A stretch of DNA of 40,815 nt from contig JAIXYC010000148.1 of the NCBI GenBank assembly GCA_027490455.1, positions 1-40,815 on the forward strand, given 5' to 3'. Positions 35,122-40,815 of the stretch are shown here, one piece after another. The DNA comes from Sphingomonadales bacterium (GTDB taxonomy: Bacteria; Pseudomonadota; Alphaproteobacteria; Sphingomonadales; Sphingomonadaceae). The notes beneath the pieces were generated by a model that saw nothing but the letters and a program-made list of their open reading frames with translations, ran no database searches and was not told the origin of the DNA. A program made the position numbers and the translations under genes. Position 1 is the first letter of the stretch. The number at the start of each line of letters is the position of its first letter.

Positions 35122-36462
35122 ATGGAAAATACGTCTTTCTACCGCACGATCTGGCGTTGGCATTTCTATGCCTCGCTCTTCGTCATGCCATTCATTCTCA
35201 TTCTTGCCACAACTGGGGCAATTTACCTGTTCAAGCCGCAGTTGGACCGGTGGGAAGAGCGGGCATTTACGAACCTGCCGACTGAAAAGGCAGTGTCACC
35301 CAATGTACAGTTGGCCGCCGTAATGGCGGCCAATCCGGGTGCGCAATTCCAAAGCTATCGCTTGCCCGAACGTGCAGGCGATGCCGCCATGATTCATATT
35401 GGCCTCGCCGACGGCCAATCCATGCGCGACGTCTATGTGTCACCGCAGGGTAAAGTGTTGGGCAGCATCGATCCGGAAAGCCGGATATCCGCGACCGTGT
35501 CGCGGATACATGGTTCGCTGCTGATCGGCAAAATAGGTGACTGGATTGTTGAACTGGCGGCGTGCTGGGCGATCGTCATGATCTTGACCGGACTGTATAT
35601 GTGGTGGCCGCGCGGGCAGCGCTTTGCCGGTGTCGTGTGGCCCCGTTTGGGAAAGGGCAATCGCGTGTTCCTGCGCGATCTGCATGCGGTGACTGGGTTC
35701 TGGGTTTCCGGGCTGGCGCTTGTTTTGCTGCCCACAGGACTGCCTTGGGCGAGCGTTTGGGGCGATGCGTTCCGTATTGCCCGCGCTGAATTGGGCCTTG
35801 TTCAAGGCGCGCAAGACTGGAAAACGGGCAGTGCCGCACCGCATGCCGAGCATGACCATGATGCGATGATGAAAATGCAGGCTGCCGGTGTTCCGCTGGT
35901 TGGCTTGGCGGACATGGTCGCCAAGGCGAAAGCCGAACGGCTGCCGCATCCGGCGTTGGTGAAAGCACCAGGCGCGCCAGAGCGTTTCGGCCCATCTGCG
36001 CCGATGGCCTGGACCATTAAGTCGGAGGCGCAGAACCGACCATTGAACCGCAGCATCACCTTTGATGTTGCGACGGGCAAGGAGATGTCGCGCACAGGCT
36101 TTGCCGACAAGCATGTCATTGATCAGGCCGTCAATTATGGAATTGCATGGCATGAGGGCCAGCTTTTTGGCTGGATTAATCAGCTTGTCGGCGTGCTTAC
36201 GGCGGTTGGCCTGATCACATTGGTGGTGTCGGGTTTCCTGATGTGGCGACGGCGCAAGCCCGATGATGCGCTCGGCGCACCTCCGGTTGCTGCGCTGCCA
36301 CCGAAAATACGCGGCGTGGCGGTGATCGTCGCTGTAATGGCCATATTGTTGCCATTGCTCGCGATGTCATTGCTGGCTTTATGGTTGTTCGACCGGCTGT
36401 TGCTGCCCCGACTGCCGGCGCTTGCGATGTGGCTTGGGTTGCGTCCGGCTCAGCCTGCGTAA
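35122..36462 (+). CDS. PepSY-associated TM helix domain protein
   Basis: FYRTIWRWHFYASLFVMPFILILATTGAIYLFKP; start at MENTSF after GGAG SD. Confidence 0.92.
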   Translation: MENTSFYRTIWRWHFYASLFVMPFILILATTGAIYLFKPQLDRWEERAFTNLPTEKAVSPNVQLAAVMAANPGAQFQSYRLPERAGDAAMIHIGLADGQSMRDVYVSPQGKVLGSIDPESRISATVSRIHGSLLIGKIGDWIVELAACWAIVMILTGLYMWWPRGQRFAGVVWPRLGKGNRVFLRDLHAVTGFWVSGLALVLLPTGLPWASVWGDAFRIARAELGLVQGAQDWKTGSAAPHAEHDHDAMMKMQAAGVPLVGLADMVAKAKAERLPHPALVKAPGAPERFGPSAPMAWTIKSEAQNRPLNRSITFDVATGKEMSRTGFADKHVIDQAVNYGIAWHEGQLFGWINQLVGVLTAVGLITLVVSGFLMWRRRKPDDALGAPPVAALPPKIRGVAVIVAVMAILLPLLAMSLLALWLFDRLLLPRLPALAMWLGLRPAQPA

Positions 36463-36854
36463 CGCGCTGCGGTCTCACGGATAAGCGAGATCATATTGGG
36501 AATGCCCTGTGTCCGGTTCGAACTTAACTGATTTTTGAGGTCGAACGGCGCAAGGGCACTCTCGATATCGGTCTTCAGAATATCGGCCGCATTTTTATGC
36601 TCGACCGTTTTAAGGACCAATGCGATGATGCCCTTGGTAATCGCGGCGTTGCTGTCGGCCAAAAAGGTCAGCGTGCTATCTGCGGTCACGGGATAGACCC
36701 ATACACTTGCTGAACATCCCCGAACCAGCGTCGCATCGGTTTTCAACGCGGCGGGCATTTCGGGCAATTCGCGGCCGAGGTCGATTAGCAACCGATAACG
36801 GTCATCGGCCTCAAGAAATGCATATTCTTCTGTAATGTCGGCAAATGTTGTCAT
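36450..36854 (-). CDS. SufE family Fe-S cluster assembly protein
   Basis: DDRYRLLIDLGRELPEMP...LVRGCSASVWVYP; converges with and overlaps the PepSY gene by 13 nt. Confidence 0.93.
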   Translation of the reverse strand: MTTFADITEEYAFLEADDRYRLLIDLGRELPEMPAALKTDATLVRGCSASVWVYPVTADSTLTFLADSNAAITKGIIALVLKTVEHKNAADILKTDIESALAPFDLKNQLSSNRTQGIPNMISLIRETAARYAG

Positions 36855-36878: not shown

Positions 36879-37121
36879 TTAGATATCAATCCCTGCCGCT
36901 ATGGCTTCAAGCCTTTTCACGCGCTCTTTCAAATCGGCGACCTCAATACGCGACGTGGCCGAGGGCACAGGTGCATCATTGCCGTGCCGCATGGTTTCAA
37001 GTTCGGCATGCTTCAACGCGATCCAGTCGCGCCAGCCACGCAGGCTTAATGACGACACGATGCCGACGCACAGCACCGCAAAGGCGCCGATGATAATGTA
37101 GAAGTTGGGATCCTGTTGCAT
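36879..37121 (-). CDS. Small TM + coiled-coil protein (psp-locus paralog)
   Basis: N-terminal TM helix then EVADLKERVKRLEAIAAGI. Confidence 0.65.
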   Translation of the reverse strand: MQQDPNFYIIIGAFAVLCVGIVSSLSLRGWRDWIALKHAELETMRHGNDAPVPSATSRIEVADLKERVKRLEAIAAGIDI

Positions 37122-37147
37122 GGTCCTTCCTTTCCGTCCGCGCGCCG

Positions 37148-37420
37148 TTACCGGCTACGCAGTTCCTCAATCTGACGGTTGATATCACTCGCGCTATTGT
37201 TGTCTGTCGCGATGCGCTCCAAAACCTGAATGCGTTCCTTCAAGGCCCGAATTTCGTCCTGCATCTGCTGCGTATCCGCATTGTTCAAAAGACGGTGGGT
37301 TTTGGTGCCCATAAAGTCTTGATCCTCGACGATCCCATGCTTTGCCTTTTGCTTCGTCTGGATAATCCTGCCGATCGTGATGATGGCAATGATTGCGACG
37401 ACCATTTGAAACGGGTCCAT
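37148..37420 (-). CDS. PspB-like small TM + coiled-coil protein
   Basis: N-terminal TM; KAKHG; EIRALKERIQVLERIATD; C-terminal QIEELRSR. Confidence 0.72.
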   Translation of the reverse strand: MDPFQMVVAIIAIITIGRIIQTKQKAKHGIVEDQDFMGTKTHRLLNNADTQQMQDEIRALKERIQVLERIATDNNSASDINRQIEELRSR

Positions 37421-37430
37421 TAATTGCTCC

Positions 37431-37757
37431 TCAATTCGACGGCCCGCGAAGGGCCTCTATTTCAGATGTTAATCGGTGACTGTCATCGACAATGATTTTT
37501 TCGACATTGGCAAGCCGGTCCTTGATTGAGCCGATTTCTGCGCGCAGCTGCGCGTTTTCTTGGCTCAACAATTTTACGCGTTCGACGGCCTCCTGATCGG
37601 TTTTGGGATAGACTGCCTGACCCCATGCACCATCAAGCGGGTAGCCATTTTTGATGCGCATCCATGTGGTGAGCACCCATCCAACCGAAATTGCGACAAC
37701 GCCAATACCTATCATGGGGCCGATGGCCGTAATCATTGCTAGCTTGTCAGGGTCCAT
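37431..37757 (-). CDS. PspB-like small TM + coiled-coil protein
   Basis: TWMRIKNGYPLDGAWG; SIKDRLANVEKIIVD; RLTSEIEALRGPSN; GGAGG SD before ATG at 37757. Confidence 0.72.
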   Translation of the reverse strand: MDPDKLAMITAIGPMIGIGVVAISVGWVLTTWMRIKNGYPLDGAWGQAVYPKTDQEAVERVKLLSQENAQLRAEIGSIKDRLANVEKIIVDDSHRLTSEIEALRGPSN

Positions 37758-37775
37758 AGCTTCCTCCAATGCGCC

Positions 37776-38075
37776 TCAGCGCAGTTTTTCGATTTCTTCG
37801 GAAAGGCGCCCGGCCTTGTCCGTGACGATCCGTTCCAAGACAGCGACCCGTTCTTCCAGACGACCAACCTTGCCATTCAGCGTTTCATTTTCATTGCTGA
37901 GCAGCATGATTTTGCGCTCTGCTTCGGGATAGTCGCCATCGGTCAGCGCTGATTTTCCACCCCATTCATCTTCCAATGGGTAGCCATGTTTGGCGCGGAT
38001 CCAGTTGTTGATGAGCCAACCGACTGTCATCACTACCACAATCGCAATGACGAAATTGGGGCCTGCAAAGCTCAT
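37776..38075 (-). CDS. PspB-like small TM + coiled-coil protein
   Basis: NWIRAKHGYPLEDEWGG; RLEERVAVLERIVTD; RLSEEIEKLR; start overlaps upstream small ORF as ATGA. Confidence 0.75.
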   Translation of the reverse strand: MSFAGPNFVIAIVVVMTVGWLINNWIRAKHGYPLEDEWGGKSALTDGDYPEAERKIMLLSNENETLNGKVGRLEERVAVLERIVTDKAGRLSEEIEKLR

Positions 38076-38230
38076 TTGAATTCCCTCCATGGCAGACGGC
38101 GTGTGACGGGCCGGATGGGGCTGTCGCGGAAATCAACGCTCCAGTTGCGGCGATCCGCCTTGCGTTTCTTCTGTGCGAAGTGGCGATATGCAAACCACGC
38201 AATCAGCCCGAGAATAATGAGTGTGAACAT
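38072..38230 (-). CDS. Small membrane protein, 52 aa (not in supplied ORF track)
   Basis: MFTLIILGLIAWFAYRHFAQKKRKADRRNWSVDFRDSPIRPVTRRLPWREFK*; GGAGGGAA SD upstream; ATGA coupling to 38075 gene. Confidence 0.72.
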   Translation of the reverse strand: MFTLIILGLIAWFAYRHFAQKKRKADRRNWSVDFRDSPIRPVTRRLPWREFK

Positions 38231-38257: not shown

Positions 38258-38641
38258 TTATCGAAGGCTCTCGATTTCGTCCGCCAGCTGCTTGTTATTG
38301 CTGACATAATAGGTTTCCATTTCGGCCAGCCGGTGGTCGATTTCCCGAAAACGCGAACGAATATCGCGTGTTGTACGGGCAGGTGACTGGCGCACACCCT
38401 GCCAGAATTTCTGGTCTTGCCGATCGTCGGTATACAGATGCACGGGCTTTGGGTTGGCCATCCAAGCGGTGATGACATAGGCAATGAGCGTCCACGGAAA
38501 ACCGCCCATCAAAGTGAGCATCACCGTGCCAAGCCGTACCCAGAGAACGTCCACGCCGGTATAGTCGGCAATCCCTGCGCAAACGCCTTTCCATTTGGCA
38601 TTCTGCTTATCCAGATAGAATTTGGTGTGTGTACCAGCCAT
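38258..38641 (-). CDS. pspC: Phage shock protein C
   Basis: FYLDKQNAKWKGVCAGIADYTGVDVLWVRLGTVMLTL PspC domain; start at MAGTHTK (38641). Confidence 0.92.
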   Translation of the reverse strand: MAGTHTKFYLDKQNAKWKGVCAGIADYTGVDVLWVRLGTVMLTLMGGFPWTLIAYVITAWMANPKPVHLYTDDRQDQKFWQGVRQSPARTTRDIRSRFREIDHRLAEMETYYVSNNKQLADEIESLR

Positions 38642-38642
38642 T

Positions 38643-38930
38643 TTAGCGGTTCCTTTCCAGCCTGTGGGCATTTTCGGGGTCGAAAGCATTTGTTTCATGG
38701 TCGATGCGACGTGGCTGCCATTCAGGATTTTCCTGAGCGACCAGACGCTCAACGGTATCAAGGCGGTCTTCGAGGCGACGGGCAAGTTCGTTCATGTCGC
38801 CCAGCATCCGCTCGTCATCATAGGTAAGCGTTGCCGCGGTTTTCCAGCGGGTGACATAATGCAGGATCAGCCAAGGCAAACCAATAAACAATATGCCAAC
38901 GACGAAAACGGGGATGAGCGTATCTTCCAT
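38643..38930 (-). CDS. pspB: Phage shock protein B
   Basis: TM helix then ARRLEDRLDTVERLVAQENPEWQPR, as in PspB. Confidence 0.9.
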   Translation of the reverse strand: MEDTLIPVFVVGILFIGLPWLILHYVTRWKTAATLTYDDERMLGDMNELARRLEDRLDTVERLVAQENPEWQPRRIDHETNAFDPENAHRLERNR

Positions 38931-38934
38931 CGGA

Positions 38935-39618
38935 TCAACCTTCCTTCTGTGCGTCTTGTTTCATGGCTTTTTTCATCGCTTCCAGCTCGGCATCGACAAC
39001 GTCGAAGGACTCAAGTGCTGCGATTTCGTCGCCCAAGCTGCGTGGCGCATCTGAACCGATGGACAGCGAGTCCGCATATCCCTGCGCTTCGTCCACGCGG
39101 CGTTCGAGCACGTCAAAGCGTGAGAAAGCTTCGCGAACCTTGTCGCCATTATACATGGTGCGCAGCTTGACCTGGTTCTCGGCGCTTTCAAGACGCGTCA
39201 TCAGCGCGTTCTGGCGGCTACGGGCGTCGGCGAGCTTTTTCTGCAGCTTATGAATATCCTGCTCCGACGCTTTCAGCGCGTCGTTGAGAACATCGACTTC
39301 CGCCGTCAGCTGGTCCTTCATGTCGGTCGCCTTGCGCTTTTCGACCAAGGCAGCCTTGGCAAGGTCTTCGCGATCTTTTGACAGTGCGAGATGGGCCTTG
39401 TCGGTCCAGTCAGCTTCAAGCGTGTTCAGCTTGTCGATGTGCCGGCGCAGTTCTTTCTGGTCAGCAATCGTCCGGGCTGCGGAAGCGCGGACTTCAACCA
39501 GCGTTTCTTCCATCTCCAGAATGATCATACGGATCATCTTCGCTGGGTCCTGCGACTTGTCGAGCAAGTCCGTGACGTTGGCGGCGATGATATCGCGGGT
39601 TCGTGAAAATATGCCCAT
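38935..39618 (-). CDS. pspA: Phage shock protein A (PspA/IM30)
   Basis: MGIFSRTRDIIAANVTDLLDKSQDPAKMIRMIILEMEETLVEVRASAARTIADQKELRR. Confidence 0.97.
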   Translation of the reverse strand: MGIFSRTRDIIAANVTDLLDKSQDPAKMIRMIILEMEETLVEVRASAARTIADQKELRRHIDKLNTLEADWTDKAHLALSKDREDLAKAALVEKRKATDMKDQLTAEVDVLNDALKASEQDIHKLQKKLADARSRQNALMTRLESAENQVKLRTMYNGDKVREAFSRFDVLERRVDEAQGYADSLSIGSDAPRSLGDEIAALESFDVVDAELEAMKKAMKQDAQKEG

Positions 39619-39726: not shown

Positions 39727-39915
39727 TCAGGCAAGATAGCTGACAACGATTGGCCGGTGGGTGTAATTTGGGGCGTTCATGTCAATATCGTCATAATGGT
39801 TGAGAACCGAAACGGCATAGCTGGTGAAGATCATGGACACGGACAGGGCGACGGCCAGCCATAGACGGCTTTCGCTTGCCTTTACCTTGCCGCTGGTTTC
39901 GATATCGTTACGCAT
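39727..39915 (-). CDS. Small membrane protein, 62 aa, promoter-proximal in psp locus
   Basis: MRNDIETSGKVKASESRLWLAVALSVSMIFTSYAVSVLNHYDDIDMNAPNYTHRPIVVSYLA; single TM; downstream of sigma-54 promoter match. Confidence 0.65.
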   Translation of the reverse strand: MRNDIETSGKVKASESRLWLAVALSVSMIFTSYAVSVLNHYDDIDMNAPNYTHRPIVVSYLA

Positions 39916-39966: not shown

Positions 39967-39983
39967 TGCAGGGAGCGTGCCAA
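39967..39983 (-). promoter_or_regulatory. Sigma-54 (-24/-12) promoter
   Basis: Minus strand TTGGCACGCTCCCTGCA versus consensus YTGGCACGrNNNTTGCW; spacing of GG and GC correct; oriented to psp genes. Confidence 0.88.
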
Positions 39984-40082: not shown

Positions 40083-40815
40083 ATGGAACGCGATAGTCAT
40101 CAATTCATTGGACAATCGTCCGCTTTTCTTGATGCCGTTGAGCGCGCAAGCCGCGCCGCACCGCTCAATCGGCCCGTGCTGGTTGTGGGTGAACGCGGAA
40201 CCGGGAAAGAACTGATCGCGGAACGCCTCCACCGCCTGAGTTCACGTTGGGATGGGCCTTTGGTCACGATCAACTGCGCTGCGCTGCCTGAAACCTTGAT
40301 TGAGGCCGAACTGTTCGGCCATGAAGCCGGCGCCTTCACCGGAGCCACCCGTGCACGCGAGGGGCGGTTTGAAGAAGCCGACGGCGGCACGCTGTTCCTC
40401 GATGAACTGGGCACGTTGAGCATGGGCGCGCAGGAACGGCTGTTGCGCGCGGTCGAATATGGTGAGGTCACGCGTATTGGTTCATCGAGGCCAATGCGTA
40501 TCGATGTCCGTATTGTTGCGGCCACCAATGAGCATCTGCCCAACATGGTGGATAAGGGACGCTTTCGTGCGGACTTACTCGATCGGCTGTGCTTTGAGGT
40601 GATAACTTTGCCGCCATTGCGCGTTCGCGAAGGCGATGTTGAGGTTCTTTCTGAATATTATGGGCGTCGGATGGCGGCCGAATTGGGGTGGGCAGGGTGG
40701 CCGGGTTTCGGCGAAGTTGCGACCCGGGCGCTTGAAAACCATTTATGGCCGGGCAATGTGCGCGAATTGCGTAATGTGGTCGAACGTGCCGTATATCGCT
40801 GGGCTGACCCTGCAC
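40083..40815 (+). CDS. pspF: PspF-like sigma-54 enhancer-binding activator (truncated by window end; not in ORF track)
   Basis: Open frame from ATG 40083: MERDSHQFIGQSSAFLDAVERAS...GERGTGKELIAERLH...AGAFTGAT...GGTLFLDELGTL...WPGNVRELRNVVERAV; divergent from psp operon. Confidence 0.94.
   Translation, partial: MERDSHQFIGQSSAFLDAVERASRAAPLNRPVLVVGERGTGKELIAERLHRLSSRWDGPLVTINCAALPETLIEAELFGHEAGAFTGATRAREGRFEEADGGTLFLDELGTLSMGAQERLLRAVEYGEVTRIGSSRPMRIDVRIVAATNEHLPNMVDKGRFRADLLDRLCFEVITLPPLRVREGDVEVLSEYYGRRMAAELGWAGWPGFGEVATRALENHLWPGNVRELRNVVERAVYRWADPA

Follow-up and report, generated by a model that had tools for sequence, protein, structure and literature searches.

Small membrane proteins with PspC-type tails form a variable gene array in the psp operon of Sphingomonadaceae

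Introduction

The mechanism by which PspB and PspC detect membrane damage and release PspF remains under debate, one reason being that PspC is anchor, sensor and output at once. The C-terminal cytoplasmic domain of PspC binds PspA in the on state (PMC5596341). When overproduced, the E. coli fragment PspC40-119, which consists of one transmembrane (TM) segment and the tail, interacts with PspA and induces psp even when PspB is missing, and leucine-zipper mutants of the PspC tail lose the interaction with PspA and keep that with PspB; the response to pIV still requires full-length PspC (PMC3068692). Because the topology of PspC is disputed (PMC3068692), the role of the tail in PspC itself is not settled. 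As for PspB, the available passages of Ravi et al. 2024 report PspB duplicates in psp operons, with AOL22920.1 as an example, and divergent PspB domains fused to the PspC C-terminus (PMC11237479).

We analysed a window of 40,815 nucleotides from a Sphingomonadales bacterium (assembly GCA_027490455.1, contig JAIXYC010000148.1), in which pspABC is followed by an array of small ORFs, o1 to o4. Like the PspB duplicates, these are extra PspB-like genes in the operon, whereas arrays of up to nine genes, a PspC-type tail, a restriction to Sphingomonadaceae and a joint loss with psp do not appear in the available passages of Ravi et al. 2024 (PMC11237479). In our literature searches we met neither the array itself nor an account of its PspC-type tail, copy number or joint loss, and members are annotated at NCBI as hypothetical, for example in Sphingomonas parapaucimobilis. 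Both the Psp system and PspB duplicates are already known, and the array is a variant of this known system.

Results

Organization of the psp locus

The first-pass annotation had recognized four consecutive minus-strand ORFs at 36879-38075, downstream of pspABC. Their coordinates proved correct, and the next gene is sufE (Table 1). The pspF gene is divergent from pspA, and 75 loci carry a pspF-like ORF on the opposite strand.

Table 1. Features of the psp locus in the window.
Feature	Position	Strand	Remarks
pspF, sigma-54 activator	40083..40815	+	AAA+ enhancer-binding protein frame; 3′ end open, past window end
Candidate sigma-54 promoter TGGCACGCTCCCTGC	39968..39982	-	~360 nt upstream of pspA
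pspA	38935..39618	-	TIGR02977, 268.5 bits, exceeds cut-off
pspB, genuine	38643..38930	-	PF06667, 83.7 bits; TIGR02976, 83.5 bits
pspC	38258..38641	-	TIGR02978, 131 bits; hhalign with o1/o2/o3
PspC tail common to array	38368-38261 (residues ~92-127)	-	hhalign with o1/o2/o3
52-aa TM ORF MFTLIILGLIAWFAYRHFAQKKR...	38072..38230	-	Between pspC and o1; no coiled coil; dN/dS 0.18 and 0.09
o1, 99 aa	37776..38075	-	TM, GYPLEDEWGG, PspC-type tail; AlphaFold2 model
o2, 108 aa	37431..37757	-	TM, GYPLDGAWGQAVYPK, PspC-type tail
o3, 90 aa	37148..37420	-	MDPFQMVVAI type, the type with relatives beyond Sphingomonadaceae
o4, 80 aa	36879..37121	-	Last gene of array; shortened tail RIEVADLKERVKRLEAIAAGIDI
sufE	36450..36854	-	PF02657, 115 bits; downstream neighbour, array boundary

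Within the window alone, matches to a sigma-54-like pattern are no more frequent than expected by chance. Across loci, a strict form of the pattern was found at most 500 bp upstream of pspA in 41 of 66, against about 0.04 per locus expected, and the listed examples lie at 342-402 bp. With this conserved candidate site and the near-contiguity of the genes that follow it, the array may be under the control of PspF and sigma-54. The spacing of roughly 360 nt between site and pspA is kept across loci; in the window it holds a small TM ORF of 62 aa (MRNDIETSG...VSYLA; 39727-39915, minus strand), and similar ORFs occur in 18 loci.

Two further small TM ORFs adjoin the array, each in some of the loci. 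Among the loci compared, relatives of the 52-aa ORF ahead of o1 were seen only in Sphingorhabdus-like loci, and this ORF, which has no tail, was rejected as an array member. In many Erythrobacter-type loci, a 58-aa ORF (AGIGLGSAIAVAISWSxxxSIxWA...TRPGG) follows o4, as at L085 6412-6585 and L094 6664-6840.

Architecture and relationships of the array proteins

Each of o1-o4 is preceded by a Shine-Dalgarno-like site, and the four are kept in 80 named loci. Judged by dN/dS ratios of 0.03-0.12 where computable (against three relatives), they are under purifying selection.

By hydropathy, 393 of 394 array members have a single N-terminal TM segment, and basic residues come after it, so that an N-out/C-in orientation is inferred from the positive-inside rule. 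The AlphaFold2 model of o1 (mean pLDDT 74) contains a TM helix at residues 6-30 and a long helix at 50-98; that of PspC, from an alignment of window and locus sequences, is of low confidence (pLDDT 58) and was set aside. The array proteins thus have the architecture of PspB, a single N-terminal TM helix and a C-terminal coil, the latter predicted to lie on the cytoplasmic side. Hydropathy and the o1 model thereby bear out the first-pass description of one TM helix and one coiled coil per ORF, for which the coiled-coil strings had been quoted correctly; the (A/I)K(H/N)G motif is indeed present in o1-o3, and GYPLxxxWG in o1 and o2.

The view that the four are mutual paralogs was upheld for three of them. 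Profile comparison identified o1-o2 (hhalign 99.8%) and o1-o3 (99.6%) as full-length homologs, and similarity between o4 and o1 is weaker (56%); an HMM of o3 recovers 34 of 80 o4 sequences. On these profiles, o1, o2 and o3 are clear paralogs to which o4 is tied weakly. We kept o4 in the array because of its position and its weak similarity to o3 and o1.

The shared tail is mainly of the PspC type

The array proteins share a conserved C-terminal tail, L(K/E)(E/D)R(V/L/I)xVLERI(A/V)TD....LxxEIEALR, whose core is, in shorter form, RVxVLERIxTD....EIExLR. Compared by hhalign with a PspC profile of 26 sequences including E. coli, o1, o2 and o3 reached 88%, 96% and 90%, in alignments that run to the last residue of PspC; against PspB, the values were 26%, 33% and 34%, with 1% for o4. 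Reversed profiles lowered the o1-o3 values against PspC to 1-19%, and PspA, an unrelated coiled coil used as control, gave 0.5-0.9%. These controls and column-shuffle nulls rule out chance coiled-coil similarity. The heptad core of the tail resembles both PspB and PspC, whereas the distal fifteen columns (9-23) resemble PspC only, with 20.6 bits against PspC and -1.3 against PspB; as the motif search had fixed columns 0, 1, 4 and 5, only columns 9-23 are unbiased. Because o1-o3 match the PspC C-terminus strongly and PspB weakly, the shared element is mainly the tail of PspC.

None of the four qualifies as a PspB by profile score. With a Pfam cut-off of 25.6 bits, o1 scores 10.8 and o3 10.3 bits, and o2 and o4 give no match; all four also stay below the cut-off of the NCBIfam PspB profile. 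The segment DxxxPxW that follows the coil in PspB is absent, the array consensus at this place being TD....LA.EIEALR. PF04024, the N-terminal PspC domain, has no match in o1-o4. The first-pass suggestion of PspB-likeness therefore stands for the architecture, and for one Erythrobacter-type array member elsewhere (L169 3732-4064, 32.1 bits) that exceeds the Pfam cut-off, but not for the profiles of the window's own members, which are all below the cut-off with similarities of 1-34%.

The C-terminal PspC tail, found in o1-o3, is not found in o4, whose tail is without the distal PspC-like half; hhalign and its controls gave no profile link of o4 to PspB or to PspC, and these comparisons do not support it as a relative of either.

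A possible though doubtful reading of this small family is that it arose from pspB and that its members are alternative PspBs, which would partner PspC and establish the off state. It can call on the shared architecture, on the PspB-like heptad core RxxxLERI, on the 32 array members recovered by the PspB profile at E<1e-3, a minority of which are PspB-like from end to end, and on the duplicates mentioned in the available passages of Ravi et al. 2024 (PMC11237479). Yet the PspC profile recovers 104 members at the same threshold, the window's members miss every PspB cut-off, and their distal columns are PspC-like without DxxxPxW. A true PspB duplicate, unlike the array, was observed in another family (L166 3318-3554, minus strand): downstream of pspC lies a genuine second PspB with a PspB tail (Pfam, 38 bits).

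As far as profiles and models tell, the fairest description of an array member is a PspB architecture with a PspC-type tail. With PspC (TIGR02978 / PF04024) it shares the operon and the C-terminal helical tail, for o1-o3 to the last residue, but it has no PspC domain, a single TM anchor, and a separate gene present in several copies. With PspB (TIGR02976 / PF06667) it has in common the operon, the single N-terminal TM segment, the C-terminal coil and the RxxxLERI core, but it differs in its PspC-like distal tail and in longer linkers with GYPLxxxWG-type motifs. Closest in build is E. coli PspC40-119, one TM segment plus the PspC tail (PMC3068692), which is an artificial truncation, whereas the array genes occur naturally and vary in their TM parts.

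N-terminal parts are 0.29-0.63 identical inside paralog groups and 0.01-0.29 between them, and tails 0.29-0.65 identical between groups. Such group-specific N-termini on a common tail fit varied membrane-facing parts with a predicted shared output. Within genomes, no co-evolution of array tails with the PspC tail was detected, and that between o1 and o2 tails was marginal (0.436 vs 0.417, p 0.01, 18 clades). In three Erythrobacter-type loci (L106, L102, L094), the adjacent o0e and o1 genes have a common C-terminal extension, GVPLxxxxKE, which suggests gene conversion or tail shuffling.

The array is linked to psp and confined to one family

When whole Sphingomonadaceae genomes were searched, 127 of 151 contained o1 relatives, with at most five matches in any one of them. 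From named genomes, a scan yielded 80 loci, spanning Sphingorhabdus, Sphingopyxis, Sphingobium, Sphingomonas, Novosphingobium, Erythrobacter, Porphyrobacter, Qipengyuania and others. All 81 loci have pspA, pspB and pspC in the same operon, 77 of the 81 have sufE, and the array sits between pspC and sufE, the latter nearly always straight after it. In 77 loci, 394 array genes of 65-125 aa were verified by profile, a mean of 5.1 per locus (range 1-9; four in the window), although these copy numbers lean high because loci were picked by similarity to o1. Neighbouring array genes are at most 50 nt apart in 308 of 317 pairs and overlap in 141. Single-member genomes have either an o3-like gene only (G025) or o4 only (G077, G119). 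Over more than 60 residues, identity between the nearest paralogs of a locus does not exceed 58%, with a median of 40%, and the duplications are therefore old. In other families of the order, sufE directly follows pspABC (L159, L160); since it adjoins pspABC in these array-less families too, the psp-sufE linkage is older than the array.

Array genes are present in 140 of the 142 psp-positive genomes among the 151 of the family. The two exceptions are a true absence, where pspC is directly followed by sufE (G051), and a contig edge (G099). In the nine genomes without both pspA and pspB, array genes are absent (0/9). This co-occurrence is significant (Fisher p ~1e-13, G099 left out), with a p value that overstates independence because the genomes are related. 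The linkage to psp genes expected by the first-pass annotation thus extends to other genomes, both in this presence with psp and absence without it and in the order pspABC-array-sufE, which almost all of the 81 loci show.

In GTDB terms, the array belongs to a single family, Sphingomonadaceae. In a class sample beyond the family, the o1 profile matched nothing except one o3-like gene. The o3-type profile matches 94 of 121 genomes of the order, as well as one further family of the class (f146) and, elsewhere in the phylum, several families that are gammaproteobacterial by resemblance. Outside the order, such relatives usually number one or two copies. None of those inspected in Gammaproteobacteria and in the f146 and f177 Alphaproteobacteria adjoins psp genes; the role of the tail may accordingly extend beyond Psp. 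As o3-type relatives are widespread, the array is best seen as an older family of small proteins that has been amplified within the psp operon in Sphingomonadaceae. As for the proposed local duplication of PspB, a recent duplication of the window genome's own pspB was rejected, on the sub-cut-off PspB scores of the window's members and on the single-copy relatives that are widespread across two classes, Alpha- and Gammaproteobacteria.

Natural variants with the tail apart from PspC

In 11 genomes of another family of the order (L162, L167, L225-L233), pspB, a full pspC, a tailless second pspC, whose profile match ends at about position 71, and a single TM-tail gene stand in a row. Within Sphingomonadaceae, one genome (G042, L222) lacks pspB; it has pspA and a pspC without tail, behind which two TM-tail proteins are encoded. 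These split-PspC arrangements are as would be expected if the tail can be provided in trans.

Discussion

With moderate confidence, we favour the reading that the array is a Sphingomonadaceae extension of the Psp system, in which PspC output tails on their own membrane anchors would dock PspA or PspB in trans. Since the array proteins are built like PspC40-119, we infer that their tails dock PspA or pair with the tails of PspB and PspC in trans. Upon induction by PspF and sigma-54, the array proteins would insert into the inner membrane, where their tails would join the interactions of the PspC tail, either by docking PspA or by associating with the tails of PspB and PspC. PspA-docking sites would thus become more numerous, and mixed complexes could arise whose membrane-facing parts differ; the place or time at which a member engages would depend on its divergent TM and juxtamembrane part, and the output would be common to all through the tail.

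It is improbable, in our estimate, that the array proteins instead take no part in signalling and serve as anchors for PspA oligomers or, in repair, as organisers of membrane patches. High copy number, the co-expression expected from a shared operon and the contact of the tail with PspA in E. coli PspC (PMC3068692) would suit such a scaffold, but the strongly group-specific juxtamembrane motifs, such as GYPLxxxWG, point to a role beyond simple anchoring. Dosage-neutral expansion of a dispensable gene, with duplications of little functional consequence, could account for copy numbers from 0 to 9 and for the loss of the whole array in G051, but is very hard to reconcile with the low dN/dS of all four genes and with an array kept in nearly every psp-positive genome and absent where psp is absent.

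Beyond the favoured reading of PspC-type tails acting in trans, we raise only as a speculation the idea that Psp in Sphingomonadaceae has passed from a two-sensor switch to a multi-input system. The TM and juxtamembrane part of each member would read a different membrane condition, the signals of all members would meet at PspA by way of an interchangeable PspC-type tail, and the inputs would vary from 0 to 9 by lineage.

In these genomes, the output tail has been parted from PspC and multiplied on varied anchors, and the PspC of some lineages is itself tailless. The array thereby offers a direct test of the tail as sole carrier of the signal and of the membrane part as the source of specificity. 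A large set of hypothetical proteins is also tied to a stress pathway. Because most array proteins end in a copy of the PspC signalling tail, the phage-shock system of Sphingomonadaceae may have many inputs or docking sites, where that of other bacteria has one.
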